NCBI RefSeq assembly: GCF_022376445.1 | Contig: NW_025955135.1 | Coordinates: 1 to 64,000, forward strand | Length of the DNA: 64,000 bases | Source: Fomitopsis serialis | Lineage: Eukaryota; Basidiomycota; Agaricomycetes; Polyporales; Fomitopsidaceae | Reading direction: 5' to 3' | Shown here: positions 1-47,660 of the stretch, in pieces | Layout: each line of letters opens with the position of its first letter | Numbering within the stretch: the first letter of the stretch is position 1 | Program-made: the position numbers and the translations under genes | Notes under the pieces: generated by a model | The model's database searches: none | What the model was told of the DNA's origin: nothing | What the model saw: the letters and a program-made list of their open reading frames with translations, nothing else

Positions 1-88
1 GTCGCGCAGGTGTAAGGGGGACTGCCTGAGCTACGAAGACAGTGCAAAGAAGAGTGACGGTGGCGAGAAGAGCAGTAGTAAGACGCAT
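1..88 (-). CDS. Module 1 secreted Cys protein, N-terminal fragment (runs off window)
   Basis: Only the first 29 codons lie in the window. Translation from the ATG at 88 starts with MRLTTALLATVTLLCTVF and continues to a VAQA-type signal peptidase site, so a secreted product is expected. The start and leader match the paralogues at 3731, 38170, 41789 and 45696 (all minus strand) and 62737 (plus strand). The closest leader is the 45696 copy, which shares the VAVPxTP-like stretch after the signal peptide. It is divergent from the propeller gene at 1051, as in every other module. The function of the mature protein is treated under the complete copy at 2836-3731. Confidence is high that this is a family member; whether the rest is intact cannot be seen. 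Confidence 0.8.
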   Translation of the reverse strand, partial: MRLTTALLATVTLLCTVFVAQAVPLTPAR

Positions 89-1050
89 GGCGGATGTATG
101 GGGCTGGTCGTTAGGTTCGTGCGATGAGGGGAGTTTCTGGAATAGTGTCTGGATAACGAATCAGACGGATGGGCGAGTAGTCGAAAGTATGTTAGAGCAA
201 GACTGCACGCGTGAAGGAGGACCGGCCTGGCTTTGGACATTGCTCCGTCCTGCCTTTTATGTCTGGCGGCCGTCCGCCTTGACACACGAGCGTCGGTACA
301 CAGTCCGTTCCGACATGCGAGCGTTTAACCCAATGTGCCCGTCAGCTCTCCAGGGGAGCAGTACAAAGCGCCCGAACAGCGCTCTGGCAGATAAGATGAT
401 ACGTGATTCGGAGCTGCACATGCAGATGTCATGTCAGTCAAAATTGCACCACACCTAATAGACAAGGCGGGCCCAGTCACCTTGAGCGCCCGGAGGTTTG
501 AACTTCGAAATAGTTATCCGGAACAAGCTCTGTGCCAAGTGCCCAAATACAAGGATGAACCAGCGAGGTTTCATGAAGTCGACAACCATCCTCTTGAACC
601 CGAATTCCGTAACATATTCCGGAGAAAGTGTGGGCTGCTCAGCGCTCAGGCCTCAGGTGCTGTACCTTTGAAGCCCAGGTTCGCCGCGCTCAAAGGTATC
701 AGGAAGCCCCTCTTGATCCGGCGCTCACCTCAGCATCCCGACACGGTATCCGGACACACCGTAGAAGGGCATCGGACGGTGCGCCACCCGTCGTTTCGGA
801 GGTACACCTGCCTATAGGGCGATGCCGATCATGAGATCAGGAAAGGGGCTGTGCGACGTGAATAGCAATCGTATCCCTAGGAGGCCACAGCCTGAACATC
901 TCGGGGGCTCAAAAGTGTTCCATCACAACCCCCACTACAACCATTCGACCTTGCCCGACTTCCACAGTGAGTGAGACTATACATTAGATCGCATATGATC
1001 AGTATATTGACGTGGGTTTTTTTAGCCAAAAGCACCCACCAACCACCTCG
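89..1050. promoter_or_regulatory. Divergent intergenic region of module 1
   Basis: This stretch separates the minus-strand secreted gene from the plus-strand propeller gene and is homologous to the same interval in all modules. On the secreted-gene side a GCCTTTTAT box (minus-strand TATA, ATAAAAGGC) sits near 250-260, about 165 bp from the start codon, next to a conserved GGCCTGGCTTTGGAC element. A conserved block from about 600 to 965 contains CATGAGATCA and CTCAAAAGTGTTCCATC. A GATC(G/A)xxTATGATCAGTAT element at about 985-1003 precedes the propeller ATG by some 50 bp. Open frames here shift between copies and are not conserved, so I see regulatory or non-coding sequence rather than a third gene. 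Confidence 0.6.
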
Positions 1051-2307
1051 ATGTCCCCAGCAAACTCCCAACCCCTCACTCTCGACGGCAACGTCGAGAC
1101 ATTCTACGTCCATCAGTCCTATGTACTCACCTTCGGCAAAACCAGCGTCGATGTCTGGCGCGCGGGAGGCCCACACGAGCGCCTCGAGCACGTAGCACAC
1201 CTCGCCCACTTCGTACAGCCTCCGCCGTATCACCTCGAACCCATCTTCGACATCGACCGTAACCTCATCATCATCGCCGACCAGGCCCAGGAGAATGTCC
1301 CACCCTCGCTCTTCGTGTTCAGCGTCGTCGACGGTCACCTCATCCGCAAGCTCGAGCTGTATGGCACCTTGACCGAGGATCACCTGTGGTACGCGGACGG
1401 CAAGGTCGTTGTCGCCATTGTAGAAAACCTCACCACAGCCTTGCTCTGCGACGTCCTCGGCGACGGTGGGGTCCTCGGCCGGGCCACCCTCCCCTCACGT
1501 CTCAGGGCGCGCGAGGAGAAGCGGCTGAACACGAACGGAGGCGTGCTGTTGCCCGTCCACGTCAGGCCGAACGGCGATATCATCGCGACGTCGTCCGAGG
1601 CGTGGGGTGACAAAATGGAGGTCCTGCGCTGGCGCGGGGCCGACGTTCCCCACTCACCGGAGCCAGACGCTAGCTTCACGCTCGACGTCGGGATCGAGGA
1701 TGGCGATGAGATCTACCCGACATGCAGCGCGCACCTGAATGAGAACACCTTCCTGCTGGCCGTCTACGAGGCAGACGGTAGCGGGCTCCCGGTGCAATCT
1801 GCCTGCCAGACGTCGATCTATGCCATCGACACGGAGACCATGACCATTCGGTGGCACGCTAAGCCCATCGAAGGCTGGGTGCACACCGTTCGATACGTTG
1901 CTGCTCTGGATGTTATCGTCGCATTTGGACGGCACGACAATGGAGACGGCATAAAGTCCGATAAGTTCGGATACGCCGTCGTCCTCGACCCCGCGACGGG
2001 CAGCCAGCGGCAGATGGAGACGATCAACCACGGCGTGCAGGGCACTGCAGTAGAGTATTGTGGGCTCAGTCAAACCGGTGATGAGTTCGCGGTCGTCGTT
2101 GTCTTCGCTGATGGGTCCGTATGCGCGGTCGATCTGAGGCGATTCCTGGAGCATGGCTTCCCGAGAGAAGGCGAGCGGGTGGTGGTTTCGAGGCCACTGC
2201 CCGAGGGATCCAGCGTCAAGGAAGTGGCCATCGCTGGGCAGACAGTAATCCTTTTCGTCGACGACGGCGGCGAGTCTCCGCGCAGCCTGTACTTTAGCCT
2301 TGAGTAA
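1051..2307 (+). CDS. Beta-propeller-like cytosolic protein, module 1 (P1)
   Basis: Single open frame of 418 aa. I chose the ATG at 1051 because MSxxxSQPLTLDG is the shared start of all copies; an upstream in-frame ATG at 1012 is not conserved. There is no signal peptide. The chain is a series of short beta-strand-rich segments such as TSIYAIDTETMTIRW, VVVLDPATG and FADGSVCAVDL, which is the pattern of WD40/PQQ-like propeller blades, but no classical GH..WD repeats are present and I recognise no named family. It lies divergent from the secreted gene at 88. P1 is closest to P5 (46397): both have VETFYVHQ, VDVWRAGGPHER and IDRNLII, where P2-P4 have VEAFYVHQ and DIWRxGAPHGR. Function is unknown; an intracellular partner of the secreted protein is an inference from linkage only. 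Confidence 0.8.
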   Translation: MSPANSQPLTLDGNVETFYVHQSYVLTFGKTSVDVWRAGGPHERLEHVAHLAHFVQPPPYHLEPIFDIDRNLIIIADQAQENVPPSLFVFSVVDGHLIRKLELYGTLTEDHLWYADGKVVVAIVENLTTALLCDVLGDGGVLGRATLPSRLRAREEKRLNTNGGVLLPVHVRPNGDIIATSSEAWGDKMEVLRWRGADVPHSPEPDASFTLDVGIEDGDEIYPTCSAHLNENTFLLAVYEADGSGLPVQSACQTSIYAIDTETMTIRWHAKPIEGWVHTVRYVAALDVIVAFGRHDNGDGIKSDKFGYAVVLDPATGSQRQMETINHGVQGTAVEYCGLSQTGDEFAVVVVFADGSVCAVDLRRFLEHGFPREGERVVVSRPLPEGSSVKEVAIAGQTVILFVDDGGESPRSLYFSLE

Positions 2308-2835
2308 AGGTCGGAAGATGGGAGTACTGACGCAAGAGGGTCGAGGCACATACTGTACTTACCGAGCACATACTTACTGTACCGATACCGTGACAGTGCT
2401 ATGTAAGGATGTAATTATACATGTAGTAAGTAAGTACTACTTGCTCGGTGATCGTAGCTCTGTCACGGTTACGGAATTTGTGACTGCTGGTAAGATCTAC
2501 CTACAAGTTGTTAACATGTTATTACCGAGGCCCTGAGTATCATCGGCACGCAGTGACGGTTCTCAAGACCTCATCTCTTGATTGTTCACTTTAAAACCTG
2601 AGTGACATCCTGAACAAATATGTAATATACTCTCCAAGCCGTACAGCAGTTTGTTACTGGCCACAAGACCGCGCGCAGCGCGCAGCATGAGAAGTGTGAC
2701 GGTCCGGATGGTGTACAGCACCAATTGAGCACCGGGGTAGGTTCTCATAACGTTCAGTCATCTGGAGATGGTCGCCTAGGATATTCAAAAATCACATTGA
2801 CAAAGATGTGAATATATGGTCCGGCCCACCCCGTC
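2308..2835. other. Intergenic between modules 1 and 2
   Basis: About 530 bp between the convergent 3' ends of P1 and the module 2 secreted gene. It is AT-richer than the genes and holds no supported gene. The outer edge of the inverted repeat that can be seen in this window falls at 2468; homology may continue leftward, because the matching arm is cut by the window end at 64000. Confidence 0.6.
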
Positions 2836-3731
2836 CTAGCAATTCGCACCCCGTGCTGCCGTCGTCGCACGGATGTCCTTCGGGAAGCACTGGTCGTTCG
2901 TCACGTACACGCAGATGTTTGGCCCGAAGGTCGTTGCGACAGAATATGAGCCATTCGTCACTGAGTCGCGCAACTTACCCGCCTTGAGCCCCGCTGTGAT
3001 CGCGTCCGTGCAGATCCTGGCCACATCCATCTCCTTGTACCTATGCACAATGTTTTGAGCCTTGATCTCGGCCTTGTCGTCAATCCAAAGTGTCTTTGGC
3101 TTAACAAGTGGTAGAGGGACCGGTCAATCGGGAACAGCATATGGGGCTAAGTGGCCCACCTTGCGTGTGCGTGGCACTTGAGCGAGAGCCGTCGCCTCAT
3201 CCTTTTCTGAGTCGTCAGCATGATTCTTCAGCCAGGCTGACATAAGATGCCGGCCGGAACCTGGGCTACTGCCGCCGTGCAGGACGTGTGTCTTCATCAC
3301 CGCCCATAATTGAGCTGCTTTCGCAGCGATTTCAGTATCCTCGGCCTCACTTCTCGCAGCAAGGCTCTGTCGTGTAAGCTTCGGCGTTAATGCAATCGCG
3401 CCGCAGGGTCAGTGCTAAGTACTGACAGCGGATGCCTTCCTGCATTGAGCCGCAGATGTTGCGAGGGACCCAGGGTGGCCTTCTTTCGCGGCACAGCTTA
3501 GCGTGTCAAGCGAGAATCCGCAACGATCCGCACGGGCTGCAGTGGTAATAAGCGTGGGTGATAGCTTTCGTGCGACCACCACCATTACAACGTACCACAA
3601 GAGTCACAGTCTGTCAATCTCGCACAGGCTCTAGCATCGTTTCGGGAGCCAATCGCCAGCGGGGCGGCTTGCACTAAGAAGACGGTGCAAAGGAGGGTGA
3701 TGGTAGCAAGGAGAGCAGTAGCGAGACGCAT
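2836..3731 (-). CDS. Secreted Cys-containing protein with EndoU-like features, module 2, intact
   Basis: Four exons, 3731-3596, 3536-3427, 3378-3160 and 3099-2836, join in frame to 242 aa. Residues 1-21 are a signal peptide ending LVQA. The next segment has conserved cysteines (ACARLTDCDSCG, then RCGFSLDTLSC and AAQC). The C-terminal half has H113 in a HVLHGG motif, H126 in a GRH motif, a lysine at 157 in PKTLW, a helix with regularly spaced Ile/Ala, then NGSYSV, a GPNICVYV strand and QCFP near residue 227. This order (H..G, GxH, Lys, amphipathic helix, G..G strand, aromatic-Pro) resembles bacterial EndoU nucleases, but a Phe replaces the usual Tyr and the match is by eye. Intron 2 has a GTCAGT donor. 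The divergent neighbour is the propeller gene at 5011. A secreted nuclease-like effector is inference; secretion is well supported. Confidence 0.8.
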
Positions 3732-5010
3732 GTCGGGTGTACGGGACTAGTCGTGACGTTCGTGAACGGACGGTCGATAGGATGGATGGGTCGAGTAGCA
3801 AATGCCCGGCGATGCAAGACTGCACGAATGGAGGAGGACCAGCCTGGTTTTGGACATTGCTATGCCCGGCCTTTTATACTTGTTGACCGTCAGCCAGGAC
3901 ACGCCTGATTGCCCATCCGTTAGGATATCCGAGCGTTCTAACTGACCGGACAGCTCTTCAGGAGATGTCGCGAAGCTCCCAGATACCGCCCGGGCAGATC
4001 GGGAGCTTGAGATGATACACGATGCGAAGTACCGCAAGGCTCTGCGCAATACGGAATGTAAATTGAGATAGCACAAGATGCGCGCAAGCAGTACGTGCCT
4101 TGTGAGGTCGGGCGCTCTAAGTTCGACACCTACTGCCGAATGAAAGGCCATATTCAGAAATCGGGCACTTAAATCACATTTTTTCCCGCCACGCTACCTT
4201 TGCATTCTTACGCGCGAATACTAGCCAACGCATCCATAGAACGCAACGTGAGTGGCTGTGCTGCATCGTCGAGGGCGATGTTCATCACATTTGCCATTTG
4301 AACGTCGCAGGAAGCTGTCAACAGTTCTCTTGGACCCGCGCCCGGCGAAGCATGCTGTAACAGTATCAGGATACTCCGAGGAAGGCGTCGGTCCATGGGC
4401 CTTACCACAGGCAGAAGTGCCTTTAGGGCGCCGGTCCCGATCATGAGATCAACAAAGGGGCTGTGCGAAGTTGTCCACAGGCCCGAGGACACCGCATCTC
4501 GGGGCCACAAAACTTGTCCCTGCGACCGTTTTGCTTCCAGAGACTGGGACACTTCGTTGGAGATGTATGATCAGCATGCTGACGTGCTTCGTTCAGTTTA
4601 AGCATTCCGTAACATACTCCAGGGAAAGCGTCGGCTGCTGTGGTACTGCACCTTTGAAGCCCGCGTTCGCCCCGTCCAAACGTCTCAGGAAGCACCTCTT
4701 GATCCAGCGCTCATCGAAACATCCCGCAGCGATATCCGGACACCCCGAAGAAGACGTCGGATGGTGGGCACAGCTGCCTGAGGGCGGTCCCAATCATGAG
4801 ATCAGGAAACTTGGGTGCGACGTGAATATTTGGATGGCTATAGTATCCGTAGAAGCATCTTGGGTGCTGAGAATGTCCCATCGCACCTCCTGCTACGGCC
4901 CATCGGCCTTGCCTGACTTCCACGGAGAATGAGACGCTACATTGGATCGTGTATAATCAGTATGCTGACGCGCTTATACAGCCAAAAGAAAACACACACC
5001 ATCCACTTCG
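3732..5010. promoter_or_regulatory. Divergent intergenic region of module 2, with internally duplicated block
   Basis: Same role as 89-1050. The minus-strand TATA (GGCCTTTTATACT) lies at about 3870. The conserved block is present twice in tandem, roughly 4255-4600 and 4608-4925: both carry a GGTCCC(G/A)ATCATGAGATCA element and a preceding CAGCxTxCC/GATACTCCGA-like stretch, but they have diverged. The element before the propeller, GATCGTGTATAATCAGTATGC, lies at about 4945-4965. No frame is conserved between copies. Confidence 0.55.
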
Positions 5011-6270
5011 ATGTCTCTAGCAGTCTCCCAGCCCCTGACCCTCGACGGCGACGTAGAGGCATTCTACGTCCACCAGTCGTATGTACTCACCTTCGGCAAA
5101 ACCAGCGTCGACATCTGGCGTGCGGGAGCCCCACACGGGCGTCTCGAGCACGTAGCGCACCTCGCCCACTTCGTACAACCTCCGGCGTATCACCTCGACC
5201 CCGTCTTCGACACCGACCGCAACCTCATGGTCATCGCCGATCAGACTGAGGAAAACGTCCCACCCTCGCTCCTCGTGTACAGCCTCATCGGCGGTCAACT
5301 CATCCGCAAGCTCGAGCTGTATGGCACCCTGACTGAGGATCGCTTGCGGTACGCCGATGGGAAGATCCTTGTCGCCGTCGTACTGGAAGACCTCACGACC
5401 ATACTGCTCTGTGACGTCCTCGGGGATGGCAGGGTCCTCGGCCGTGCTACCCTCCCCACACGCCTCAGGGCGCGCGAGGAGAAGCGACTGAATACGAACG
5501 GAGGTGTGCTGCTTCCCGTACACGTCAGGCCGAACGGCGACATCATCGCGACGTCGTCCGAGGGATGGGCTGACAAGATGGAGGTCCTGCGCTGGCGCGG
5601 GGCCGACGTTCCCAACTCACCGGAGCCAGACGCGAGCTTCGCGCTCGAGGTCGGGGTCGAAGACGGCGATGAGATCTATCCGACATGGAGTGCGCCCCTG
5701 GACGAGAACACCTTCCTTTTGGCCGTCTACGAGGCAGACGGTAACGTGCTTCAGGTGAAGTCTGCCTGCCAGACGTCGATCTATGCTATCGACACGGAGA
5801 CCTTGACCATCCGGTGGCACGCTGAGCCCATAGGAGGCTGGGTGCACACCGTTCGACATGTCGCCGCGCTGGACATCATCGTCGCGTTTGGACGGCACGA
5901 CAACGGGGACGGCATACAGTCCGACAAGTTCGAATACGTCGTCGTCCTCGATCCTGCGACGGGCAGCCAGCGGCAGACGGAGACGATCAGCCACAGCGTG
6001 CAGGGCACTGCAGTAGAGTACTGCGGACTCAGCCAGACAGGTGATGACTTCGCGGTCGTCGTTGTCTTCGCTGATGGGTCAGTATGCGCGGTCGACCTGA
6101 GGCGATTCCTGGAGCATGGCTTCCTGAGGGAAAGCGAGCGGTTGGTGGTTTCGAGGCGACTGCCAGAGGGGTCCAGAGTCAAGGAAGTAGCTGTAGGTGG
6201 GCACACAGTGATAATTTCCGTCGACGACGGCAGCGGGTCTCCGCGCAGCCAGTACTTTAGCCTCGAGTAG
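5011..6270 (+). CDS. Beta-propeller-like cytosolic protein, module 2 (P2)
   Basis: Intact single-exon gene of 419 aa starting MSLAVSQPLTLDGDVEAF. It has no signal peptide or membrane segment. Propeller-like strands recur through the chain, for example SIYAIDTETLTIRW, YVVVLDPATG and FADGSVCAVDLRRF, about 40-50 residues apart. It is clearly homologous to P1 and even closer to P3 and P4. An identical copy lies at 60197-61456 on the minus strand in the other repeat arm. No catalytic motif is visible, so a binding or scaffold role is more likely than an enzyme. Its constant divergent neighbour is the secreted protein at 2836-3731. The family is not one I can name. Confidence 0.85.
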   Translation: MSLAVSQPLTLDGDVEAFYVHQSYVLTFGKTSVDIWRAGAPHGRLEHVAHLAHFVQPPAYHLDPVFDTDRNLMVIADQTEENVPPSLLVYSLIGGQLIRKLELYGTLTEDRLRYADGKILVAVVLEDLTTILLCDVLGDGRVLGRATLPTRLRAREEKRLNTNGGVLLPVHVRPNGDIIATSSEGWADKMEVLRWRGADVPNSPEPDASFALEVGVEDGDEIYPTWSAPLDENTFLLAVYEADGNVLQVKSACQTSIYAIDTETLTIRWHAEPIGGWVHTVRHVAALDIIVAFGRHDNGDGIQSDKFEYVVVLDPATGSQRQTETISHSVQGTAVEYCGLSQTGDDFAVVVVFADGSVCAVDLRRFLEHGFLRESERLVVSRRLPEGSRVKEVAVGGHTVIISVDDGSGSPRSQYFSLE

Positions 6271-6531
6271 AGTTTTGGTACCTATGTAGAGGTCAAGACA
6301 CAGACTTGAACCGCACGAAAAATGGTAGCTCTCTGTCACAATCACGGGACATGTGACTTGGCGCGCTCCCGCCGGCAGCATCGTGATTCGTGACGGCGGT
6401 CCTCATCTTTATCATGACTCTGTGCGCCCTGGTCAGTCTGACTCGACGCGATATGTCTCTGTTAAGAATGGCCACCTCTCCACCGTATTTTCCCACACAA
6501 ACACCCGGACAACGTAGCGAGGACTGAGACC

Positions 6532-7353
6532 ATGTCTCCGGCATTCGTAAACAACTTCACCCCGCCACCAGCAACCGTTTATCCTGACCCTGACAGCGTC
6601 CTCGCCTCCAAGGAGCCGTACGACATCAACTTCTCATTTCCGCTGCACTTCGATACGCTCGCATGTCCGACTGTCCGTCTTACGCCGTTCGTACCAACCT
6701 TGCACGCCCGCACGCTCTGGGAGCACGTCGGCCCACGGGCGCGTGAACTCTTCAGGTACTATCCCTACTGTCCTGATACCCTCGCACATTTCCTCTCCGT
6801 CGTCGAGAACATCCGCCGACACCCGGATAACTGTGCATTCGCCATCTTCGACCGGACGCGTCGACCAGATGGACCAGGAGGAGACTCACCCGCGGATTCG
6901 GAGGACGGTACGCTCGCGGGCGTGATGGCCCTCATCAACACGTCTAAGCAGCACAAGAACACGGAGATCGGACTCGTCGTCGTCTTCCCCGCGTTCCAGG
7001 GCACGCACGTCGCGCGCACCGCGCTCGGCCTTCTCCTGCGCTACTGCTTGCAGCCGGCGGCGGCCTCTCCTCCTGGGTTGGGCTTCCGTCGCGTGCGCTG
7101 GTCGGCGCACCCGCATAACAAGGCCTCGATCAAGCTTGCGAAACGTATGTGCTTCCAAGAGGAGGGCGTCATGCGCTGGACGTTTTGCATACCGAACGTG
7201 GAGGAGATGAAGCGAGAGGCGCATGGAGTGAAGAGAGAAGGAGAAGACGGTTGGGGACGCGATAGCGTCTGTCTGGCGATCTGCTGGGACGAGTGGGATC
7301 GGAGCGCAGGATATGGTGTGGAAAGACTGTTACAGCAGCCGTCGGGCCAATAG
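6532..7353 (+). CDS. GNAT-type N-acetyltransferase (copy 1)
   Basis: Intact 273-aa frame. The N-terminal part (YDINFSFPL, then [19 protein letters not shown]) is the start typical of fungal Acetyltransf_3-type GNAT proteins. The core has LAGVMALINTSKQHKNTEIG, where the beta-4 strand is followed by VVFPAFQGTHVARTALGLLL, the acetyl-CoA pyrophosphate-binding loop and helix, and then RWSAHPHNKASIKLAKRM and GFxEEG-like FQEEGVMRW, the usual C-terminal GNAT signature. The enzyme is expected to transfer acetyl from acetyl-CoA to an amine; the substrate is unknown. A paralogue follows in tandem at 8032, and an identical copy lies at 59114-59935. Confidence 0.85.
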   Translation: MSPAFVNNFTPPPATVYPDPDSVLASKEPYDINFSFPLHFDTLACPTVRLTPFVPTLHARTLWEHVGPRARELFRYYPYCPDTLAHFLSVVENIRRHPDNCAFAIFDRTRRPDGPGGDSPADSEDGTLAGVMALINTSKQHKNTEIGLVVVFPAFQGTHVARTALGLLLRYCLQPAAASPPGLGFRRVRWSAHPHNKASIKLAKRMCFQEEGVMRWTFCIPNVEEMKREAHGVKREGEDGWGRDSVCLAICWDEWDRSAGYGVERLLQQPSGQ

Positions 7354-8031
7354 GTGAGCCGACAGTCGTTTGTCACCTATGCTGGTGTCTCAAGACCGTA
7401 AGCTGTCACTAGATTGCTGCTGTAGGAGACCAAGTAAATTGACTGGTGAGCGTGAGCAACTGTACCCTCGCCCCGAAATGAAGCTGACAATCAATGATGC
7501 AGTGTCCCTCCATTGCATCATTCCAGCGAACGAAGGGTACAATACTGCATCTCGACTGGCGCTGGACTGAGTGCGATCTGCATGTTTGTGGAACGCTTCA
7601 CCGCATTCAGAGAGGAAGACTGGGTTGTGAGATCGAAATGATCTTGTTGTCTGAGCTCCGTAGTGTCCCTGGTGTTCAAGTTGAGTGGACAGGTCTTTCA
7701 CTTCGTACATCCCAGGGCAGAGCGAGGGAACACAGAAGTGCTTACGAGCTATTGGCAGATAGGTTCTATGTGCGTCTGAGTGGACGATGCAGATGACTCT
7801 TCAAACTGAATACGTACTGATCAACCCAGGATCACCCTTTCCTTAGGGCATGCGCCTGATTCAGGAGAGGTTACTGTTGACGGCATGGTTCCGGCCGAGA
7901 CCATCGCGATCACTGTTTCTGCGGTCGTGATCGTCAAATGACTCGACGTCGGTTCTCTACCTATATACACGGCAGCAGATTCACTGCTGCATTGTCCACC
8001 GCTACCTAAAAGGCGTGGTCACTGGTCAGAA
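7354..8031. other. Spacer between the two GNAT genes
   Basis: About 680 bp with several short frames on both strands, none with family features. The part close to 8032 is probably the copy 2 promoter (a TATATACACGG stretch at about 7962-7972). Confidence 0.5.
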
Positions 8032-8868
8032 ATGCCACCGCCATACGTGAACAACTACACCCCGCCCAAGATCGCGCCTTACCCTGACCCCGAGAGCATC
8101 CTCGCCTCCACGGAGCCCTACGACATCAACTTCTCCTTCCCGTTGCACCTCGACACCCTCACGTGTCCTACTATCCGCCTCACGCCGTTCGTACCTTCGT
8201 TGCACGCTCGCACACTCTGGGAGCAGATCGGCCCACAGGCACGCGAGTGCTTCAAGTACTACCCCTACTCCCCCGACACCTTCGCACACTTCCTGTCCGT
8301 CGTTGAAGGCCACCGACAGAATCCACATACATGCGTCTTCGCAGTCTTCGATCGGACGTGCGGGCCAGATGGGGCGCGCTCGGACACAGACTCGGGCGCA
8401 GAGGAGCGTGACGGCGTGCTTGCGGGTACGCTGGCCCTGATTAACACGTCCAAGCCGCACAAGCACACGGAGGTCGTCCTCGTCCTCGTCCTCCCCGCCT
8501 TCCGGCGCACGCACGTCGCGCGCATCGCGCTCGGCCTCCTGCTCCGATACTGCCTGCAGACACCGTCGGCCTCCCCGCCCGGGCTGGGCTTCCGCCGCAT
8601 CCGCTGGTCGGCCCATCCGCAGAACGCGCCGTCGATCGGGCTCGCAAAGCGCATGGGGTTCAGGGAGGAGGGCGTGTTGCGCTGGACGTTCGCTCTCCCG
8701 GACGTGGAGGAACTGACGCGCGAGGCGCCGGTGGTGGAGAGAGAGGGCGACGAGGGGTGGGGACGGCATAGCGTGTCTTGGCGATTTGCTGGGATGAGTG
8801 GGAGAGTGGAGGGCGAGCGACTGTGGAGGGGTTGTTGCAGCAGACGTCGGGCCATTGATACTGAGTGA
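8032..8868 (+). CDS. GNAT-type N-acetyltransferase (copy 2), frameshifted near the C terminus
   Basis: Same family as the gene at 6532 (shared [62 protein letters not shown] and [11 protein letters not shown]). In this arm the run TCTTGG at about 8776-8780 has one T fewer than the other arm (TCTTTGG). The last 30 or so residues are therefore read in another frame and the frame ends at 8868. The other arm (57608-58435) reads SLAICWDEW there, matching copy 1, so that version is the ancestral one. A T at 8477 also changes one Gly to Val. The acetyl-CoA binding core is unaffected. This may be a true recent mutation or a base-calling error. Confidence 0.75.
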   Translation: MPPPYVNNYTPPKIAPYPDPESILASTEPYDINFSFPLHLDTLTCPTIRLTPFVPSLHARTLWEQIGPQARECFKYYPYSPDTFAHFLSVVEGHRQNPHTCVFAVFDRTCGPDGARSDTDSGAEERDGVLAGTLALINTSKPHKHTEVVLVLVLPAFRRTHVARIALGLLLRYCLQTPSASPPGLGFRRIRWSAHPQNAPSIGLAKRMGFREEGVLRWTFALPDVEELTREAPVVEREGDEGWGRHSVSWRFAGMSGRVEGERLWRGCCSRRRAIDTE

Positions 8869-9691
8869 GCTGGTATTCGTGCGGCGGCGCAGGCCTGGCT
8901 GATCATCATCTCAATTGCTGCAGGGACTGTATCCCCATAAAACGCCTTCAAACGAGTTTGTGTGAGAGGAGATGACGGTAATAAGTAGTGCTCACGCTTT
9001 CGACATATCTTGCAATGCAGATGTTGAACCCATCTATTCGATCCTGTCCGTCGACGGACTGGGTTCAAGTAAATTTTGGCTAATGGATCAGTCCATCGTG
9101 CTCGGAGCTGTCGTCGAAAGCATCCTTATCCGCTATGCCAGAGCGATCATGGACGCAGAGACACATCAACCGCGGGCCCATAAGATCAGTTGGACCTTGC
9201 GTGCGACAGGGATATGCCCTCAGGCTTCGAGTACGATCACTAGAACTACTTTACTGTATCATGATAGTCAGACAGCGTTGATTGGTCATTTAGCATCCGT
9301 GGCACGGAACCCGAGAGCATAGAGGCCACCGCCAATCCTGCAGAAAGAGGCTGAAATGTAGTTTCAACCGAACTCTACAATCGAGCGTTGCCGTTTGTCA
9401 TATACCGAGTATGAATATCGTTGCGGACATCGTAAGTAAATGGCCAACTTCACATCAAACGCGAGCTTCAGCAGCGAGATTTGTCCCGGTTTCGTTTTCT
9501 GCGACATACGACTATCAAGGCTGCGAAGTGGCCCAACAGCCTTTTGGCGCCCGGCGATGCAGAAGATGTCACGCGAACCGTGGGAACCCCTGAGGTTGTG
9601 GCGACGTGAATCATTTTCCTGTGCTCTCCTCCCAACGACGACCTCAAGCTGACCTGAAGACTCTACGTACGCCGCAATTCCCTAAGGCACA
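8869..9691. other. Spacer and inner boundary of repeat arm 1
   Basis: Contains the last part of repeat arm 1 (to 9515), including an open frame at 8972-9322 with no recognisable features that changes its start between arms because of a 5-bp indel. The unique 176 bp from 9516 to the BYE1 start must hold that gene's promoter. Nothing else is supported. Confidence 0.5.
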
Positions 9692-31978: not shown

Positions 31979-32922
31979 GTGTTGTGCATAGTGCGCTCAG
32001 CACGCACACCCGAAAGACGTGAGTACAAAATTTTGACCATGTCCCACCGACTCTGATTCTTCAGCTTTGATTCGCCAGCCCCTTTCCTTACGAAGCGCAA
32101 TGTATTGATGTATAGGTATGTTCCTTGGGTAGATTGTATCGATTCGTCAATTGTCTAGATTTCTATGGTTAACGCATCTGTTTGGATCTGTTACCCCCAG
32201 TGGCATACTGCTTGATTAGTGAGGTAGGGAACGAGACGCCTCATAGCCTTGCTAAAGCAACGTGACAGATGAACACCACGCTGAATGCATCGTGCCGTCA
32301 CATCGGATGCTTCGAACCAGTTAACAGTAGGCCTGCTGGTCTTGCTCTCCTGGACTCACTCGTGTCCTGGAACCGGATTACTCTGCTGGTAACCTTCGGA
32401 ATGCAGTAGTACTGAATGATTTGATCACAGCAGAAGGTTGCATGACGACTAGGCGACTCCTTGTCCAGCGCTAGTGTGGTTGCGCATTCGATGAGGAGGG
32501 GCCCATTTACTCAGTCACTGTCCGTGGACTTTCGGAGCGCGCACTGACCAGGCTTTCCAGACTGTCTGATCGCCGTGAACGACTCTGTGGCTGTGCGCTG
32601 GCTACTGTGTCCGACTGAATAGTGGCTAGAGGCGACATCTCGATGTCAGCCTGAGGGCGTGTAGATAGGTGTAGATGCTGCGACGCCGCCTGTCTCGCTT
32701 ACCGAAGTCCCTTACAAATGCGACGAACTCTTCCAGGTGAGTAAGCACAGTCCTAGCGACGATGCAGACTCAGTACTGAAGGGTAGTTCGATGCACTAGG
32801 ATCATAGCCCGGTCCGACTAGACCGGGATATAAGGGCTTTAAATGACCATGTCTCTCCGTCGACTCTTTAGATCCACAGCGCTGTTATTGCACACTCTAC
32901 ATAGCACCCCACAACATCCACC
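31979..32922. other. Spacer including outer part of old duplication copy B
   Basis: From about 32190 this matches the reverse complement of sequence upstream of the intact MAPEG gene. A GATATAAGG box at about 32827-32835 is the relic of its promoter. No gene is supported. Confidence 0.5.
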
Positions 32923-33860
32923 ATGTTTGTCACTGTCACTACATCTCACCAGTGAGTTCTATGCAGTGCCGCTCATGCTGGTCTGTAGTAAATACCGACG
33001 TCTCATTCACCCTATATACTCAGGGCGATCTACCCCGCTGCGGCGATCGTGTCGACATGCTGGCTGACATTCTATCAGACTTTCAAGACGGTCAAGGCGA
33101 GGAAACGGGCTGGAATAGAGTATCCCCAAAGTGTGTATCACGACTCCTTGTATCTGGTACAGGGCTCATGGGTACTACCGTAGTGTACGCCGACAAGGCG
33201 GAAGCGGCCGCGTCGAAGGACGCGATGATCTTCAACTGCACCCAACGTATCTGAAGTTCACAATGCTGAGCACTCTCTGAGAGCTGACATGATTCGGGGT
33301 GTAGGTGCTGCACAGAATACGCTTGAGTACTTACCGGCCGTGATCGCCTGGTATGCTAGACACTATTTGGAGTAGTCCTACCACACTGATTGGGTATTCC
33401 AAAGCACCACCATCACCAATGTGTGGTACCTGGTCCCTCTCCCGTGTCATCTACACTATTGGCTACAGCACCGGCGATCCTGCAAAGGTGTGTTCTCAGT
33501 TGCATCATACCACACATATTCCGACCTTCGTTTGTTCACCAGCGAAACGTGTACGGCGTCACCGCGATCCAAAATTCGTTGTGGCTGGGTATGTCAATCT
33601 GAATGCAGGTCGCGAAGTATGATAGCTGACTGCCACCCTAACATGGCCAGGTCTCATCTGTAATTCGAGCGTCGCCATCGCACACCTCGCGCTCGACAAT
33701 GTGTTTGCATGATCTAGTTGAGCTGTGTTGGACTGACTGCACCATCTTACAAGACAACGGGAACACCATACGTGTAAATCCACCAGACTCAATTCGTAGC
33801 TTCTAGAAGTGTCTCCAGATGTTTGTGGATTCAACAAGTTGAGTCAAGATTGCATAGTGC
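32190..33860. repeat. Older inverted duplication, copy B (dead MAPEG region)
   Basis: Counterpart of 13850-15560 in opposite orientation. It shares the whole MAPEG gene plus upstream and downstream flanks, with many small indels. The two copies flank MBP1, MVP1 and the chitinases at a distance of about 17 kb. Confidence 0.85.
32923..33712 (+). pseudogene. Decayed MAPEG / MGST3-like copy
   Basis: Homologous throughout to the intact gene at 13996-14819. The start, first intron, the IYPAAAIVSTCWLTFYQTFKT exon, the DAMIFNCTQR exon and the AAQNTLEYLPA exon are still readable. The acceptor of the next intron has changed from GATCAG to GATTGG at about 33390, and about 25-30 bases are missing in the following exon just before TGTGTGGTACC, so the TM3 region is broken. 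IYTIGYSTGDPAK is preserved downstream. The last exons carry further changes. It is not expected to make a functional protein. Confidence 0.8.
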
Positions 33861-35808: not shown

Positions 35809-36050
35809 CCTCAAGATGGTCACGAATTGGGCCACACCAGCAACATTCAACTCAGCACCTCCGCAACTCGCTTGATGCCACACGCGGCAGAGAACAATGG
35901 TGAGATGAAGAACAATAACAAGAAGCACTTACTCGGGACGTTGTCACGTATTAGAACGGCACCCGAAACAGGCAACGTAGTTATAGTCGTCTTCCTGTAT
36001 AATCTCGCTATTGTACATGCGTCTTACATTCGTCTTATTTCTGCAATGCT
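35809..36050. other. Short spacer upstream of the F-box gene
   Basis: Holds the F-box gene promoter and the 3' end of the NTF2-like gene. AT-rich, no gene seen. Confidence 0.4.
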
Positions 36051-37276: not shown

Positions 37277-38170
37277 TCAACACTTTCCACCCGCTGCTAC
37301 CGTCGTCGCATGGATGTTCGCCGGGTAGCACTGTGCATTGGACACCGCCACGCAGATGTTGGTCCCAGTAGGCGTTCGGACAGAGTAAGAGCCACTCGTC
37401 ACCGTCGTCCTCGAATTTCCCGCTTTGAGTGCCGCCCTGAGCGCCGCCTTGCATATGCCGGCGACCTGTCTCCGCGTGTACTTGTGCGCGACGTTTGTCG
37501 TCATTCCCGTCGTACCTTTATTAACCCAGAGCGTCTTCGGCTTCACAGGAAAGGATCAGGGTTAGTCGGGGAAAGCATATGAGGCGAAGCAGCTCACCCC
37601 CTTGCCGGCCTGCACATGAGCGAGAGCCGTCGCAGGATCGACCGTCATGTGCCCAGCAGTGCCTTTGTTGGCGTTGTGCGCGAACCAAGTGGACGTGAGA
37701 TGCCGGCCAGAATTTGCCTTGTCGGGACGGCCGTTCAGGACGTGGTTCTTCATCCCTTTCCACTTTGCCTCGGCCTTTTTCCCACAACACTTCTTGTAGC
37801 AAGGATCTGTCGTATAGGCTTTAGCACTAAGACGGTCACGTCACGCAGGCAGCACTAGTAGGTACTTACAGCGGATGCCTTCTTGCATTGAATGGCAGAT
37901 GTCGCGAGAGATCCAGGATGGCCTTCTTTCGCCGCACAGCTTTGAGTGTCTAGCGAGAACCCGCAATGACTTGCACGGACTGCAGAAGCAGGAGCATGAA
38001 TAACGGCTTCTGAGCCACTGAGACGGTGGAAACGTACCACAAGAGTCGCAGTCTGTCAGTCTCGCACATGCTGTGGCATCATGTCGGGAGCCGGGCGTAA
38101 GCGGGGCGGCTTGCACTAAGAAGACAGTGCAAAGGAGGGTGAGGGCGGCGAGAGCAGTAGTGAGACGCAT
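37277..38170 (-). pseudogene. Secreted Cys-containing protein, module 3, one-base frameshift in exon 3
   Basis: Four exons as in module 2. The leader MRLTTALAALTLLCTVFLVQA is an intact signal peptide, and exon 2 keeps ASHCGFSLDTQSCAAKEG. Exon 3 enters in the family's frame but, at a five-A run (plus-strand TTTTT at 37777-37781), one base is lacking compared with the frame that encodes the HVLNGRPD and SGRHLTSTW motifs. Exon 4 is intact (PKTLWVN, AHKYTRRQVAGICKAAL, GSYSVRTPTG, AQCYPAN, stop at 37277). The break is a single homopolymer deletion, so a base-calling error is as likely as true loss. The C-terminal QCYP has the Tyr expected for an EndoU-like site. Divergent from P3. Confidence 0.75.
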
Positions 38171-39234: not shown

Positions 39235-40479
39235 ATGTCTCTAGTGAACTCCCAGCCCCTCACTCTCGACGGCGACGTAGAGGCATTCTACGTTCACCAG
39301 TCGTATGTACTCACCTTCGGCAAAACCAGCGTCGACATCTGGCGCGCGGGAGCCCCACACGGGCGCCTCGAGCACGTAGCGCACCTCGCTCAGTTCGTAC
39401 AGCCTCCGCCACATCAGCTCGACCCCATCCTCGACCCCGACCGCAACCTCATTGTCATCGCCGATCAGACTCAGGAAGATATCCCACCCTCGCTCCTCGT
39501 GTTCAGCCTCGTCGACGGTCGGCTCATCCGCAAGCTCGAGCTGTATGGCACCCTGACTGAGGACCGCTTGCGGTACGCCGATGGGAAGGTCCTTGTCGCG
39601 TCGTACTGGAGGACCTCACGACCATATTGCTCTGTGACATCCTTGGGGATGTCAAGATCCTCGGCCGGGCCACCCTCCCGACGGCCTCAGGGCGCGCGAG
39701 GAGACGCGGCTGAATACGAACGGAGGGTGCTGTTCCCGTCCACGTCAGGCCGAACGGCGATATCGTCGCGACGTCGTCGAGTCATGGGGTGACAAGATGG
39801 AGGTCCTGCGCTGGCGCGGGCCGACGTTCCCACTCACCGGAGCCAGACGCGAGCTTCGCGCTCGAGGTCGGGTCGAGACGGCGATCAGATTACCCGACTG
39901 CAGGCGCCCTGGACCGAAACCTTCCTGCTGGCTGTCTACGAGGCAGACGGTAACGTCCTCCCGGTCAATCCGCGTGAGACGTCGATCTATGCCATCGACA
40001 CGGAGACCATGACCATCCGGTGGCACGCTGAGCCCATCGGAGGCTGGGTGCACACCGTTCGACATGTCGCCGCGCTGGACATCATCGTCGCGTTTGGACG
40101 GCACGACCACGGGGACGGCATACCGTCCGACAAGTTCGGATACGTCGTCGTCCTCGACCTGCGACGGGCAGCCAGCGGCAGACGGAGACGATCAATCACG
40201 GCGTGCAGGGCACTGCAGTAGAGTATTGCGGGCTCAGCGAGACCGGGGATAGCTTCGCGGTCGTCGTTGTCTTCGCTGATGGGTCCGTATGCGCGGTCGA
40301 CCTGAAGCGATTCTTGGAGCATGGCTTCCCGAAGCAAGGCGAGCGAGTGGTGGTTTCGAGGGTTCTGCCGAGGGATCTAGCGTCAAGGAAGTGGCCATAG
40401 CTGGGCACACAGTGATCATTTCCTTCGACGACGGCAGCGGTCTCCGCGCAGCCTGTACTTTGGCCTGTCAGTGGAGTAA
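39235..40479 (+). pseudogene. Beta-propeller-like gene, module 3 (P3), riddled with single-base deletions
   Basis: Starts normally (MSLVNSQPLTLDGDVEAFYV) and stays open for about 120 codons. From about 39600 onward it loses the frame repeatedly. Compared with the almost identical P4, nearly every difference is a missing single base: for example GACGGCCTC versus GACGGGCCTC near 39680, CGCGGGCCGACG versus CGCGGGGCCGACG near 39815, GTCGGGTCGAGACGG versus GTCGGTGTCGAAGACGG near 39870, and CAGCGGTCTCC versus CAGCGGGTCTCC near 40440. Substitutions are rare. The end (SVE, stop at 40477) and 3' flank match P4. This pattern fits poor consensus sequence in a recent repeat better than slow decay, so the real gene may be intact. 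Confidence 0.8.
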
Positions 40480-40781
40480 GAGTCCATGCGTAGAGGGCCG
40501 AGGCGCCACATACAAACATGCATTTATTGTTTGGTACGATACAATGAAGTAGATCAAAACCAATACACATGTAGTTTTATGCAAGTACTTCAACCGTACT
40601 TCAACCGTAGCGTACGGCAGCTCACTGCTCATTATTACTATTCCGGCCCCAAGACCGCGCACAGTAACTTAGCAACATGGATACCGTGACAAGACGAACA
40701 ACCAGGACATTCAAGAATCATCATGATGACAACAATGCAAATACATGATTGAACACTACTCTCCGTCCTGCCCATCCCGTC
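40480..40781. other. Spacer between modules 3 and 4
   Basis: About 300 bp between convergent 3' ends, similar to the flank after P4 in its first 70 bp. No gene. Confidence 0.5.
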
Positions 40782-41789
40782 CTAGCACTTCCCACCCGGT
40801 GCTACCGTCGTCGGATTGATGCTCGCCGGGAAGCATTGTACTTTGGACACCGTCACGCAGATGTTGCCCCCAAAAGGCGACTGGACGGAGTAGGAACCTC
40901 TCGAGTCGCCCGTTTTGAGCAGTACCGCGAGCGCGGCCTTGCATATGCCGGCGACCTGCACCTGCGTGTACTTGTTCGCACCTACCGCCGTTCCCTCCGC
41001 ATTGTCATTAATCCAAACTGTCTTGATCTTCGACTACGCAGGAGATGATTAGGGTTAGTCGGGAAAAGTATATGAGGCGAAGCAGCTCACCTTCCCGCCG
41101 GTCTTCACCTGACCGAGACCCGTCGCATCATTGACATCCATGTCCCCAGCAGTGCCTTTTTTGGCAGGGTGCGCGAACCAAGTGGACGTGAGATGCCGGC
41201 CAGAATTTACGTTGTCGGGACGGCCGTTCAGGACGTGGCTCTCCATCCCATCCCACAATGTATCCGCCGTCACGGTTTGTCCCACAACCTGCTTTGCAGC
41301 AACCACTGCAACAGTACTTGCAGCGCTTACTGCAACAGTACTTGCAGCGCCTACTGCAACAGTACTTGCAGCACCTCTTGCAGCAGTCCTTGCAGCACCC
41401 GCTGCATCAGTCCTTGCAGCAAGGGTCTGTCGTACGGACTTCAGCATAAAGACAGTCCCGTCACGGGACAGCGCTAGGTACTTACAGCGGATGCTCTCTT
41501 GCATTGAGCCGCGGATGTCGCAAGGGACCCAGGGTGACCTTCCTTCGCGGCACAGCTCTGAGTGTCAAGCGAGAACCCGCAACGACTCGTATGAGCTGCA
41601 ATAGCAGAAGCATGAGTAACGGGTCTCGAGCCACTGAGACGGTGGAAACTCACCACAGGAGTCGCAGTCTGTCAGTCTCGCACAGGCTGTGGCATCGTGT
41701 TGGAAGCGAAGCGTAAGCGGGGCGGCCTGGGCCAAGAAGACAGTGCAAAGAAGTGTGAGGGCGGCAAGGACAGCAGCAGTGAGACGCAT
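40782..41789 (-). CDS. Secreted Cys-containing protein with Ala/Val repeat insertion, module 4, intact
   Basis: Four exons (41789-41654, 41595-41486, 41438-41091, 41033-40782) join in frame to 281 aa. The signal peptide is LAALTLLCTVFLAQA; conserved cysteines follow in ACARLTDCDSCG, SRCGFSLDTQSC and AAQC. Exon 3 is 129 nt longer than in module 2 because of an Ala/Val-rich stretch encoded by 24-bp repeats (units such as AASTVAVG). The EndoU-like landmarks are all present: H150 in HVLNGRPD, H164 in SGRH, Lys in KTVW, the helix YTQVQVAGICKAAL, SYSVQSPFGGNICVTV and QCFP. It is 39 residues longer than the module 2 protein. The divergent neighbour is P4. Secretion is firm; nuclease activity is an inference. 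Confidence 0.8.
41303..41418. repeat. 24-bp tandem repeats inside exon 3 of the module 4 secreted gene
   Basis: Three near-perfect units of ACTGCAACAGTACTTGCAGC plus four bases are followed by degenerate units with CTTGCAGCA. The repeat is in frame and lengthens an Ala/Val-rich linker between the Cys region and the His motifs. Other module copies lack it. Confidence 0.85.
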
Positions 41790-42876: not shown

Positions 42877-44141
42877 ATGTCTCCAGCCAACCCCAGCCCC
42901 TGGCCCTCGACGGCGACGTAGAGGCATTCTACGTTCACCAGTCGTATGTACTCACCTTCGGCAAAACCAGCGTCGACATCTGGCGCACGGGAGCCCCACA
43001 CGGGCGTCTCGAGCACGTAGCGCACCTCACCCAGTTCGTACAACGTCCGGCGTATCACCTCGACCCTGTCTTCGACACCGACCGTAACTTCATCGTCATC
43101 GCCGACCAGACTGAGGAAAGCGTCCCACCCTCGCTCCTCGTGTTCAGCCTCGTCGACGGTCAACTCATCCGCAAACTCGAGTTGCGTGGCACTCTGACTG
43201 AGGACCGCTTGCGGTACGCCGATGGGAAGGTCCTTGTCGCTGTCGTACTGGAGGACCTCACGACCATATTGCTCTGTGACATCCTCGGGGATGTCAAGAT
43301 CCTCGGCCGGGCCACCCTCCCGACGGGCCTCAGGGCGCGCGAGGAGACGCGGCTGAACACGAACGGAGGTGTGCTGTTGCCCGTCCACGTCAGCCCGAAC
43401 GGCGACCTCATCGCGACGTCGTCCGAATCATGGGGTGACAAGATGGAGGTCTTGCGCTGGCGCGGGGCCGACGTTCCCAACTCACCGGAGCCAGACACGA
43501 GCTTCGCGCTCGAGGTCGGTGTCGAAGACGGCGATCAGATCTACCCGACCTGCAGTGCGTCCCTGGACGCGAATACCTTCCTGCTGGCTGTGTACGAGGC
43601 AGACGGTAACGTCCTCCCGGTTCAATCCGCGTGCCAGACGTCGATCTATGCCATCGACACGGAGACCATGACCATCCGGTGGCACGCTGAGCCCATAGGA
43701 GGCTGGGTGCACACCGTTCGACATGTCGCCGCGCTGGACATCATCGTCGCGTTTGGACGGCACGACCACGGGGACGGCATACAGTCCGACAAGTTCGGAT
43801 ACGTCGTCGTCCTCGATCCTGCGACGGGCAGCCAGCGGCAGACGGAGACGATCAATCACGGCGTGCAGGGCACTGCAGTAGAGTATTGCGGGCTCAGCGA
43901 GACCGGGGATAGCTTCGCGGTCGTCGTTGTCTTCGCTGATGGGTCCGTATGCGCGGTCGACCTGAAGCGATTCTTGGAGCATGGCTTCCCGAAGCAAGGC
44001 GAGCGAGTGGTGGTTTCGAGGGTTCTGCCCGAGGGATCTAGCGTCAAGGAAGTGGCCATAGCTGGGCACACAGTGATCATTTCCTTCGACGACGGCAGCG
44101 GGTCTCCGCGCAGCCTGTACTTTGGCCTGTCAGTGGAGTAA
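42877..44141 (+). CDS. Beta-propeller-like protein, module 4 (P4), frameshift at codon 6
   Basis: The expected start ATG at 42877 (ATGTCTCCAGCC) is followed by AACCCCAG where the other copies have AAcTCCCAG, so one base is missing and the ATG frame does not reach the body. The body is completely open from QPLALDGDVEAF to the stop at 44141, about 416 codons, and matches P2 and P3. No other ATG in the body frame lies upstream; the first internal Met is at 43140 and would remove three blades. The protein is therefore either inactivated by this one deletion or intact with a sequencing error. It ends with GLSVE like P3. Divergent from the intact secreted gene at 41789. Confidence 0.75.
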
Positions 44142-44805: not shown

Positions 44806-45696
44806 CTAACAATCCCACCCGGTGCCACCGACGTCGCTCTATCTTCGCCGGGTAGCACTGTGCGTTGGACACCGACACGCAGATGTGTTCCCCCAAGGCG
44901 TCTGCACAGCGTAATTCCCACTCGTCACCGACTTCTTTGACTTGCCCGTGTTGAGCGCGGCCGCGAGCGCGGCCTTGCATATCTCGGCGACCTGTTCCCG
45001 CGTGTACTTGTGCGCAAGGTGTGTCGCCTTACCGTGCGCGTCGTTATCAATCCATAGTGTCTTGCTCTTCGCAGGAAAAACGATATGGTCAGTCGGGGAA
45101 AAGGCATGAGGCAAAGCAGCTTACCCCCTTGGCTAGCGTCACTTGAGCGAGAGACGTCGTTGTGTCGATGGTCATGTGTTCAGCAGTGCCCTTGTTGTCA
45201 TCGTGCGCGAACCAAGTCGACGTGAGTGCCGGCCGGAGTCTGCCTTGTCGGGACGGCCATCCAGGACGTGCGTCTCTATCCCTGTCCATTTCACATCGGC
45301 TCTCGCAGCGACATACCACTCTCGTGCGGCATGGATCTACGGTACACGCATCAGCATTGACGCAAACTAATCAGGTACAGTGCAGGGTACTTACGGCGGT
45401 CGCCTTCTTGCATTGAGTTGCAGATGTCGCAAGCTTTCCAGCGTGGTCTTCCTTCGCTTCACAAGTTTGCGTGTCCAGTGAGAACCCACAACGGCTCGCG
45501 CGGACTGCAATAGCAGGGATTGTGAATGACAGCTTGGAGGCAGCCAACGCAAATATGACGTACCACAGGAGTCGCAATCTGTTAGTCTTGCGCAGGCTAT
45601 CGCATCGTGTCGCGAAGGTGTAACAGGGACTGCCTGCGCTACGAAGACAGTGCAAAGGAGAGTGACGGTGGCGAGAAGAGCAGTAGTAAGACGCAT
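44806..45696 (-). pseudogene. Secreted Cys-containing protein, module 5, several frameshifts
   Basis: Exon 1 is intact with the leader MRLTTALLATVTLLCTVFVAQA, nearest to the fragment at 1-88. Exon 2 (SRCGFSLDTQTCEAKED) is open. Exon 3 keeps THVLDGRPDKADSGRH but then lacks one T near 45225 (CGGCACTCACG versus CGGCATCTCACG), which breaks the frame. Exon 4 has SKTLWIDNDAHG and YTREQVAEICKAAL, then loses one G in a GGGGG run near 44890, so the ICVSVSNAQCYPA strand is read in another frame, and a further change near the stop alters the end. All three are one-base losses. Divergent from P5, which also carries two one-base losses. Confidence 0.75.
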
Positions 45697-46396
45697 GGTG
45701 GATGTATGGACTGGTCGTTATGTTCGTGCGGTGAGGGGAGTTTCTGAATTAGTGTCTTGAAAGCAGATTAGAAGGATGGACAAGTAGTTGAAAGTACGTT
45801 AGAGCAAGATTGCACGCGTGAAGGAGGACCGGCCTGGCTTTGGACATCGCTCCGTCCTGCCTTTTATATCTGGCAAATATCGGCCTTGACACGAGCGTCG
45901 GTGGACAGTTCGTTCCGACAGGCGACCGTTTACTAACCGAGTGTGCCCCGCCAGCTCTCCAGCGGGGTCATGCCAGTCATGATAGCACCACACGCGGACA
46001 AGGCGCGGTCACCTTGAGCACCCGGAGGTTTGAAACCAGCGAAGAAGTCGACAACCATCTTCCGGAACCCACATTCCGCCGCCCGTAACATACTCCGGAG
46101 AAAGCGTGGACTGATCTGGTACTGCACCTTTGAAGCCCAGGTTCACCGCAAGTTCGCCGTACCCAAACGTCTCAGGAAGCCCCTCTTAACCGCGCGCCCA
46201 CCGAAGCATCCCGTAACGGTATCCGTGAGGGGCCACAGCATCTGGGGGGCTCAAAAGTGTTCCATCGCGCCCCCTACGACCATCAATTCGACCTTGCTTG
46301 ACTTCCGCCTGCAGAGAGTGAGACGCTACATTGGATCGCGTAGATTCAGTATGCTGACGCGCTTTGTCCAGGCAACACTACCCACCATCCACCTCG
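45697..46396. promoter_or_regulatory. Divergent intergenic region of module 5 (shortest copy)
   Basis: TATA of the secreted gene (GCCTTTTATATC) at about 45860; shortened conserved block at about 46085-46330 with CTCAAAAGTGTTCCATCGCG; propeller-side element CGCGTAGATTCAGTATGCTGA at about 46337. It is some 300-600 bp shorter than in the other modules. Confidence 0.55.
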
Positions 46397-47660
46397 ATGT
46401 CTCCCCAGCCTTTGACTCTCGACGGCGACGTAGAGACATTCTACGTCCATCAGTCCTATGTACTCACCTTCGGCAAAACCAGCGTCGATGTCTGGCGTGC
46501 GGGAGGCCCACACGAGCGCTCGAGCACGTAGCGCACCTCGCCCACTTCGTACAACCTCCGGCATATCACCTTGAACCCATCTTCGACATCGACCGTAACC
46601 TCATCATCGTCGCCGATCAGGCCCAGACAAAGTCCCACCCTCGCTCTTCGTATTCAGCCTCGTCGACGGTCACCTCATCCGCAAGCTCGAGCTGTATGGC
46701 ACCTTGACCGAGGATCACCTGTGGTACGCTGACGGCAAGGTCGTTGTCGCCATAGTAGAGGACCTCACCACAGCCTTGCTCTGCGACGTCCTCGGGGACG
46801 GCGGGGTCCTCGGCCGGGCCACCCTCCCCTCACGTCTCAGGGCGCGCGAGGAGAAGCGGGTGAACACGAACGGAGGCGTGCTGTTGCCCGTCCACGTCAG
46901 GCCGAACGGCGACATCATCGCGACGTCGTCCGAGGCGTGGGGTGATAAGATGGAGGTCCTGCGCTGGCGCGGGGCCGACGTTCCCAACTCACCGGAGCCA
47001 GACGCTAGCTTCGAGCTCGAGGTCGGGATCAAGGACGGCGATGAGATCCACCCGACATGCAGTGTGCCCCTGGACAGGAACACCTTCCTGCTGGCCGTTT
47101 ACGAGGCACACGGCAGCATGCTCCAGGTGCAATCCGCCTGCCAGACGTCGATCTATGCCATCGACACGGAGACCATGACCATCCGGTGGCACGCTGAGCC
47201 CATCGGAGGTTGGGTGCACACCGTTCGATACGTCGCCGCTCTGAATGTCATCGTCGGGTTTGGACGGCACGACAACGGGGACGCCATACAGTCCGACAAG
47301 TTCGGATATGTCGTTATCCTCGACCCCGCGACGGGCATCCAGCAGCAGACGGAGAAGATCAACCACGGTGTACAGGGCACTGCAGTGGAGTATGGCGGGC
47401 TCCGTCAGACCGGGGATAGCTTCGCGGTCGTTGTTGTCTTCGCTGATGGGTCAGTGTGCGCGGTCGACCTGAAGCGTTTCCTGGAACATGGGTTCCCCAG
47501 AGAAGGCGAGCGAGTGGTGGTTTCTAAGCCGCTGCCAGAGGGGTCTAGAGTCAAGGAGGTAGCTGTAGGTGGGCAGACAGTGATTATTTCTGTCGACGAC
47601 GGCAGTGATTCTCCGCGCGTCGTGTATTTTAGCCTGGAGGCCAACGGGTATGTACAGTAG
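46397..47660 (+). pseudogene. Beta-propeller-like gene, module 5 (P5), two early one-base deletions
   Basis: Starts MSPQPLTLDGDVETFYVHQ, matching P1. One base is missing at about 46520 (GAGCGCTCGAG versus GAGCGCCTCGAG) and another at about 46627. From 46704 the frame is open to 47660 (318 aa), ending in SLEANGYVQ, slightly longer than the other copies. The residues that separate P1 from P2-P4 (VETFYV, DVWRAGGPHER, HLWYADGKVVVA) are all of P1 type. So modules 1 and 5 descend from one ancestor, in both partners. Confidence 0.75.

Follow-up and report, generated by a model that had tools for sequence, protein, structure and literature searches.

The first 64,000 nucleotides of contig NW_025955135.1 (C85 below) of Fomitopsis serialis, a polypore of brown-rot habit, raise the question why a gene for a secreted cysteine-rich protein stands, module after module, back to back with a gene for a beta-propeller protein that has no signal peptide. 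This stretch is called the window here (C85:1-64000, from a contig of 81,194 bp in an assembly of 66.2 Mb and 806 contigs). Gene structures, pairing, EndoU-like residues, the propeller fold, charges, rates and, modestly, the fold of the secreted core were computed. In our judgement the chances are about even that the modules are toxin/antidote cassettes of a fungal killer type.

Pairing of the two genes

Our analysis bore out the divergent layout reported in a preliminary description of this DNA. All twelve of its gene starts are ATG codons of the right kind on the right strand, and a four-exon secreted gene and a propeller gene without signal are transcribed away from each other from intergenic regions of 0.7–1.3 kb. 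The secreted gene is interrupted by short GT-AG introns; the propeller is encoded by one open frame of 418–419 codons. The constant pairing also holds beyond the window: at least 14 distinct pairs were found in the genome after haplotypes had been collapsed, and all 14 are divergent, across two subfamilies. The cluster on C85, C24 and C159 holds nine, and C24 has two more outside it; C223/C407 carries one and C778 two, both degenerate. These counts and those of single matches are lower bounds, taken from the best-scoring candidates of the genome search. C85, C24 and C159 overlap and are near-identical (97–99.9%), as are C407 and C223 (97–98%); the overlapping copies were taken as haplotypes, and copies at the contig edges of C85, C24 and C159 were pooled with their alleles in the count.

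The unpaired copies were contig-edge pieces and one remnant of a secreted gene (C778:356.1-356.4 kb), the others being chance-level matches. Further pieces were a secreted tail next to the deleted pair 10 (C159:1.9-2.1 kb) and a propeller fragment at the end of C537, which has a 99.3% match in C778. Weak matches of secreted queries on C57, C157, C224 and C333 (E 6.6, 0.35, 0.0075 and 0.35) were set aside as chance. A sixth module (62737/61456), previously listed as a further case, was dropped as an independent one; it is module 2 mirrored in an inverted repeat (C85:56936-66466 aligns to 9524-1 over about 9.5 kb, the differences being 5 mismatches and 7 gap openings).

The secreted protein and its core

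The secreted protein consists, in this order, of a signal peptide, a PSI-like Cys-rich module and a basic EndoU/BECR-like ribonuclease (RNase) core, export being judged from the sequence by eye. The Cys-rich module is more conserved than the core, as counted without five partial or degenerate models. The putative catalytic set of the core is His-His-Lys-Thr. Its His, His and Lys follow the EndoU order and were present in 31, 31 and 32 of 33 partly redundant rows, the losses being gaps or one fragment. Their spacing is 14/38, compared with 15/40, 16/46 and 17/57 in EndoU enzymes. Two before the C-terminal Tyr position, the 33 rows have Ser (9), Gln (23) or a gap (1), and Tyr, Phe or Trp follows in 32. 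An EndoU/BECR-like fold is modestly predicted for the core.

Since none of the 11 secreted members matched the curated EndoU profiles PF14436 and PF09412, the core is described here as a probable EndoU-like RNase and is not classed as a member of the EndoU superfamily. No EndoU domain was found when the secreted protein was scanned against Pfam and NCBIfam. A PSI repeat was matched weakly by seven of the 11 members (best E 0.033, below the cut-off); DUF4381 (E 0.0068), CitG and others, with one member each, were set aside as chance. Sequence searches of the PDB returned two chance rows for one core and none for the profile, and a viral fold library gave no useful match. When the core alignment was compared with bacterial and archaeal genomes, three pattern matches were found, with no relative among them.

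In both C778 pairs (loci L016, C778:353653-353125, and L019, C778:407158 onwards), the secreted gene retains the signal and the Cys-rich module, and the core is swapped for a short tail, so that the catalytic site is gone. This tail is zinc-finger-like (Zn_SUZ12, E 0.0007; C2H2 families, E 0.006–0.05; all below the cut-off). The propellers of both pairs are broken: where the RNase core was lost, the propeller decays. Two public protein models, P0027 and P0028, likewise keep the signal and the Cys-rich module and have a short tail for a core, that of P0027 without a Pfam match. A C-terminal domain swap is possible in the C778 copies, P0027 and P0028.

The propeller protein

The partner protein is strongly acidic and has no signal peptide, and the model of the module 2 protein has a beta-propeller fold. 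It is 8–16% identical to Fbw7, Sif2 and BamB (WD40/BamB-like propellers), from which it differs in its strong acidity, in the lack of an F-box match and in a weak PQQ_2 match, which stayed below the Pfam cut-off. Propellers are general protein-binding platforms, and co-regulation is feasible with a divergent layout. Both points would suit a propeller dedicated to regulating or chaperoning the secreted RNase inside the cell, through folding, trafficking or transcription control via the divergent promoter, and not serving as an antidote. However, a cytosolic protein does not normally meet one that is exported co-translationally, and a Pfam scan of three propellers found neither an F-box nor a DNA-binding domain. 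We regard this explanation as distinctly improbable.

Subfamilies, constraint and decay

The pairs fall into subfamily A (pairs 1–9) and subfamily B (pairs 10–12), between which the secreted proteins are 40–45% and the propellers 55–60% identical. Analysis of the DNA between the genes showed that the earlier claim of one shared homologous intergenic region is correct within each subfamily (63–87% identity within A; 71% in the single B comparison). It fails between A and B, where this DNA is unrelated, with no BLAST match at E 1e-5 and 40–43% identity in a forced alignment. Shared promoter elements as a sign of co-regulation were therefore discarded, the homology ending at the subfamily boundary; promoters are alike because modules were duplicated. 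As A and B both consist of divergent pairs and their intergenic DNA is unrelated, the two genes have stayed linked for longer than the sequence separating them has stayed alike.

These results bear on the strongest of the rival explanations, simple hitch-hiking, in which the EndoU-like RNase is secreted for defence or nutrition and an unrelated propeller is carried along as whole modules duplicate. We consider it unlikely, although the homology inside each subfamily indicates linkage by descent. Against it, linkage and orientation were kept between subfamilies with dissimilar intergenic DNA and secreted proteins 40–45% identical. Constraint on the propellers points in the same direction. The median pairwise ratio of nonsynonymous to synonymous substitution rates (dN/dS) was 0.20 for the signal (22 codons), 0.23 for the Cys-rich module, 0.54 for the core (up to 0.83) and 0.27 for the propeller, in six secreted and seven propeller genes without frame shifts, the comparisons with pair 12 being near saturation. 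This indicates that both genes are under protein-level constraint, the propeller included, and that the RNase core changes fastest.

Decay of the pairs also argues against hitch-hiking. Among 12 classified pairs, six were open on both sides, five were damaged on both sides and one was damaged in the propeller only, so that five of the six damaged pairs were damaged in both genes. This count omits two of the 14 pairs, pair 4 (propeller ATG out of frame) and pair 7 (intron 2 of the secreted gene ambiguous). Pairs 3 and 6 were scored as open in the secreted gene from the public models P0019 and P0014, though our own models had shifts and stops; pairs 10 and 11 were not rescued likewise, P0026 and P0025 being without a start or a C-terminal end. 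The propeller of pair 12 was scored open from its C407 allele (the C223 allele stops early) and that of pair 6 from its C85 allele (the C24 allele needs two shifts). The members of a pair thus tend to decay together, although part of the count could be due to indel errors and to local decay that the two genes share.

In pair 10 on C24 (518.5-520.7 kb), neither gene has its start and the two run directly up to each other, as expected from a single deletion. On C159 (2.0-2.4 kb) most of its length is lost, so that the module is structurally polymorphic. One pair deleted to differing extents in haplotype contigs, together with tandem amplification and decayed copies, might be expected of a poison-antidote gene drive or an allorecognition cassette, directed at nuclei or strains of the same species and not at other species. 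The conserved signal peptide (dN/dS 0.20) points instead to export, and this possibility seems to us the most improbable of those considered.

Relatives in other genomes

Among the annotated proteins listed as relatives, in which clusters can hide members, secreted homologues were found in F. serialis, one Rhodofomes roseus cluster and metagenome proteins, and propeller homologues in F. serialis, R. roseus, Daedalea quercina, F. betulina and metagenome proteins. In R. roseus EVJ58 the secreted gene is on a contig of 47,778 bp and the listed propellers are on contigs of 67,975, 67,841, 8,723 and 93,327 bp. In another R. roseus assembly three propellers are on one contig, with no secreted protein among those listed. 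The contig placement in R. roseus is the main evidence that leans against obligate linkage.

The distances of the two proteins agreed strongly overall (r 0.89, p 0.0003, over 12 pairs), chiefly through the A/B split, and weakly within A (r 0.35, p 0.046). This test covered 12 of the 14 pairs, leaving out the two degenerate C778 pairs and keeping broken copies marked with X; in its permutations, related pairs count as exchangeable. The homologous intergenic DNA inside each subfamily, the separate contigs in EVJ58 and the weak agreement within A favour hitch-hiking. As a separate observation, in the gene model P0011 (Rhodofomes roseus EVJ58_g885) a start resembling a signal peptide runs into part of a propeller, either an annotation error or a true fusion.

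Known systems and the proposed function

PP11-type secreted EndoU proteins consist of a Cys-rich N-terminal module and an EndoU domain. The animal XendoU/PP11 enzymes resemble the fungal secreted protein in their secretion signal, their Cys-rich N-terminal module and their EndoU domain, whereas none of the 11 fungal members matched Pfam XendoU and the fungal genes are multicopy and paired.

The fungal pair differs from bacterial EndoU toxins in its eukaryotic signal peptide, introns, Cys-rich module, divergent genes and propeller partner, and no sequence-profile match joins the two. However, the bacterial toxins (CdiA-CT STECO31 with CdiI; Tox-EndoU with Imm-SUKH, Imm-SuFu and Imm28) likewise have an exported RNase core with His, His and Lys-Thr, and close to the toxin gene a second one that encodes a cytosolic partner, in the portions of the two sources used here (PMC9086364, PMC3482391). 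The portion of the 2012 polymorphic-toxin catalogue used here lists EndoU domains in bacteria, hemichordates, plants, stramenopiles and animals, with fungi not listed there, and the EndoU immunity families SUKH, SuFu and Imm28, with propellers not listed there (PMC3482391). The yeast tRNase killer toxins zymocin and PaT also combine a fungal secreted toxin with a signal-less partner; in the relevant part of the source, PaT immunity protein has no signal peptide and the immunity of both acts inside the cell (PMC4431711). These yeast toxins are encoded on A/T-rich cytoplasmic virus-like elements and have chitin-binding delivery subunits, in contrast to the G+C-rich contigs and introns of our pair. 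The window is no A/T-rich cytoplasmic linear element, as it has 51–61% G+C in 2-kb blocks and introns, and the pairs' contigs reach 1.67 Mb. No delivery subunit turned up, no search having been aimed at one. As working models, the yeast zymocin/PaT and bacterial EndoU toxin/immunity systems come closest.

The preliminary description had suggested a secreted effector or toxin with an intracellular partner. The EndoU-like residues, the acidic signal-less propeller, the pairing and the joint decay lend it support, and adjacent genes for an exported toxin and a signal-less partner were found in all 14 pairs; its promoter elements and sixth module no longer count in its favour. We infer the events in vivo (secretion, RNase activity, target, toxicity, binding and immunity) as follows. 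The secreted protein would be exported, its Cys-rich module stabilising or delivering it, and in the cytosol of a neighbour or rival cell the basic core would cut RNA via a His-His-Lys(-Thr) site of the EndoU type; that the target is tRNA is guessed from what bacterial and yeast toxins do. The acidic propeller would remain in the cytosol of the producer, bind the core and cover its active site, and so guard against mis-targeted or re-entering toxin. Tandem amplification might then yield diverged toxins with matching antidotes.

A literature search by title and start of abstract, covering few subscription journals, returned no paper describing a secreted EndoU-like/propeller pair. It is possible, at somewhat less than even chances, that these pairs form a chromosomal toxin/antidote system of EndoU type, the first in a fungus. 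A family of diverging secreted RNases would have been tandem-amplified in polypores for combat or kin recognition, a beta-propeller serving each of them as antidote and representing a new class of immunity protein, and the cores being replaced by a zinc-finger-like tail on C778. If so, fungi that decay wood use RNase toxins with matched antidotes to fight or to tell self from non-self, and the basis of interference between polypores can be tested one gene at a time.

Gene models and features of the window

Table 1. Features of the modules in the window (window positions unless a contig is given).
Feature	Positions	Strand	Remarks
Module 1, secreted gene	1–88	−	part of exon 1, contig start cuts the rest; complete copy C85:66379-67268
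Module 1, shared divergent intergenic region	89–1050		
Module 1, propeller	1051–2304	+	418 amino acids, open
Module 2, secreted EndoU-like protein	2836–3731	−	238 amino acids (spliced model); exons 3731-3596, 3536-3427, 3366-3160, 3099-2836
Module 2, shared divergent intergenic region	3732–5010		
Module 2, propeller	5011–6267	+	419 amino acids, open; propeller model
Module 3, secreted gene	37280–38170	−	own splice model with a shift and a stop
Module 3, propeller	39235–40467	+	broken, nine frame shifts to align
Module 4, secreted EndoU-like protein	40782–41789	−	277 amino acids, equals P0017; exons 41789-41654, 41595-41486, 41426-41091, 41033-40782
Module 4, propeller	42877–44129	+	open from 42894; ATG 42877 out of frame
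Module 5, secreted gene	44814–45696	−	broken, three frame shifts
Module 5, propeller	46397–47639	+	broken, two frame shifts
Mirror of module 2 propeller	60200–61456	−	
Mirror of module 2 secreted gene	62737–63632	+	

The public model P0017 is identical to our model at 41789, whose protein has an Ala-rich insert ahead of the core, and P0019 (239 amino acids) fits the 38170 copy with a shifted intron-2 donor. In P0022 and P0024, the public models of the 3731 copies, the C-terminal part is spliced otherwise than in the 238-residue model, whose C-terminal end, unlike theirs, is consistent with the other family members.

The arms of the inverted repeat (window 1-9524; 56936-64000, continuing to C85:66466) are about 9.5 kb long and have a spacer of 47 kb. 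One arm stops at base 1, the contig start, and C24 terminates at the corresponding place; the repeat is thus possibly an assembly join, or else a recent palindrome. C85:66468-74000 differs from C24 by 11 gap openings and no mismatches across 7.5 kb, and therefore some frame shifts in the module copies may be indel errors.

Two GNAT acetyltransferase paralogues stand in tandem at 6532-7350 and 8032-8820 (and in the mirror), adjoining module 2. Another inverted pair, about 1.1 kb in length, was found at 13963-15054 and 32685-33745, with blocks 85–92% alike. At 48071-48639 a tandem array with a period of 90 bp lies within open frames, and the frame at 48226-48957 has no Pfam match.

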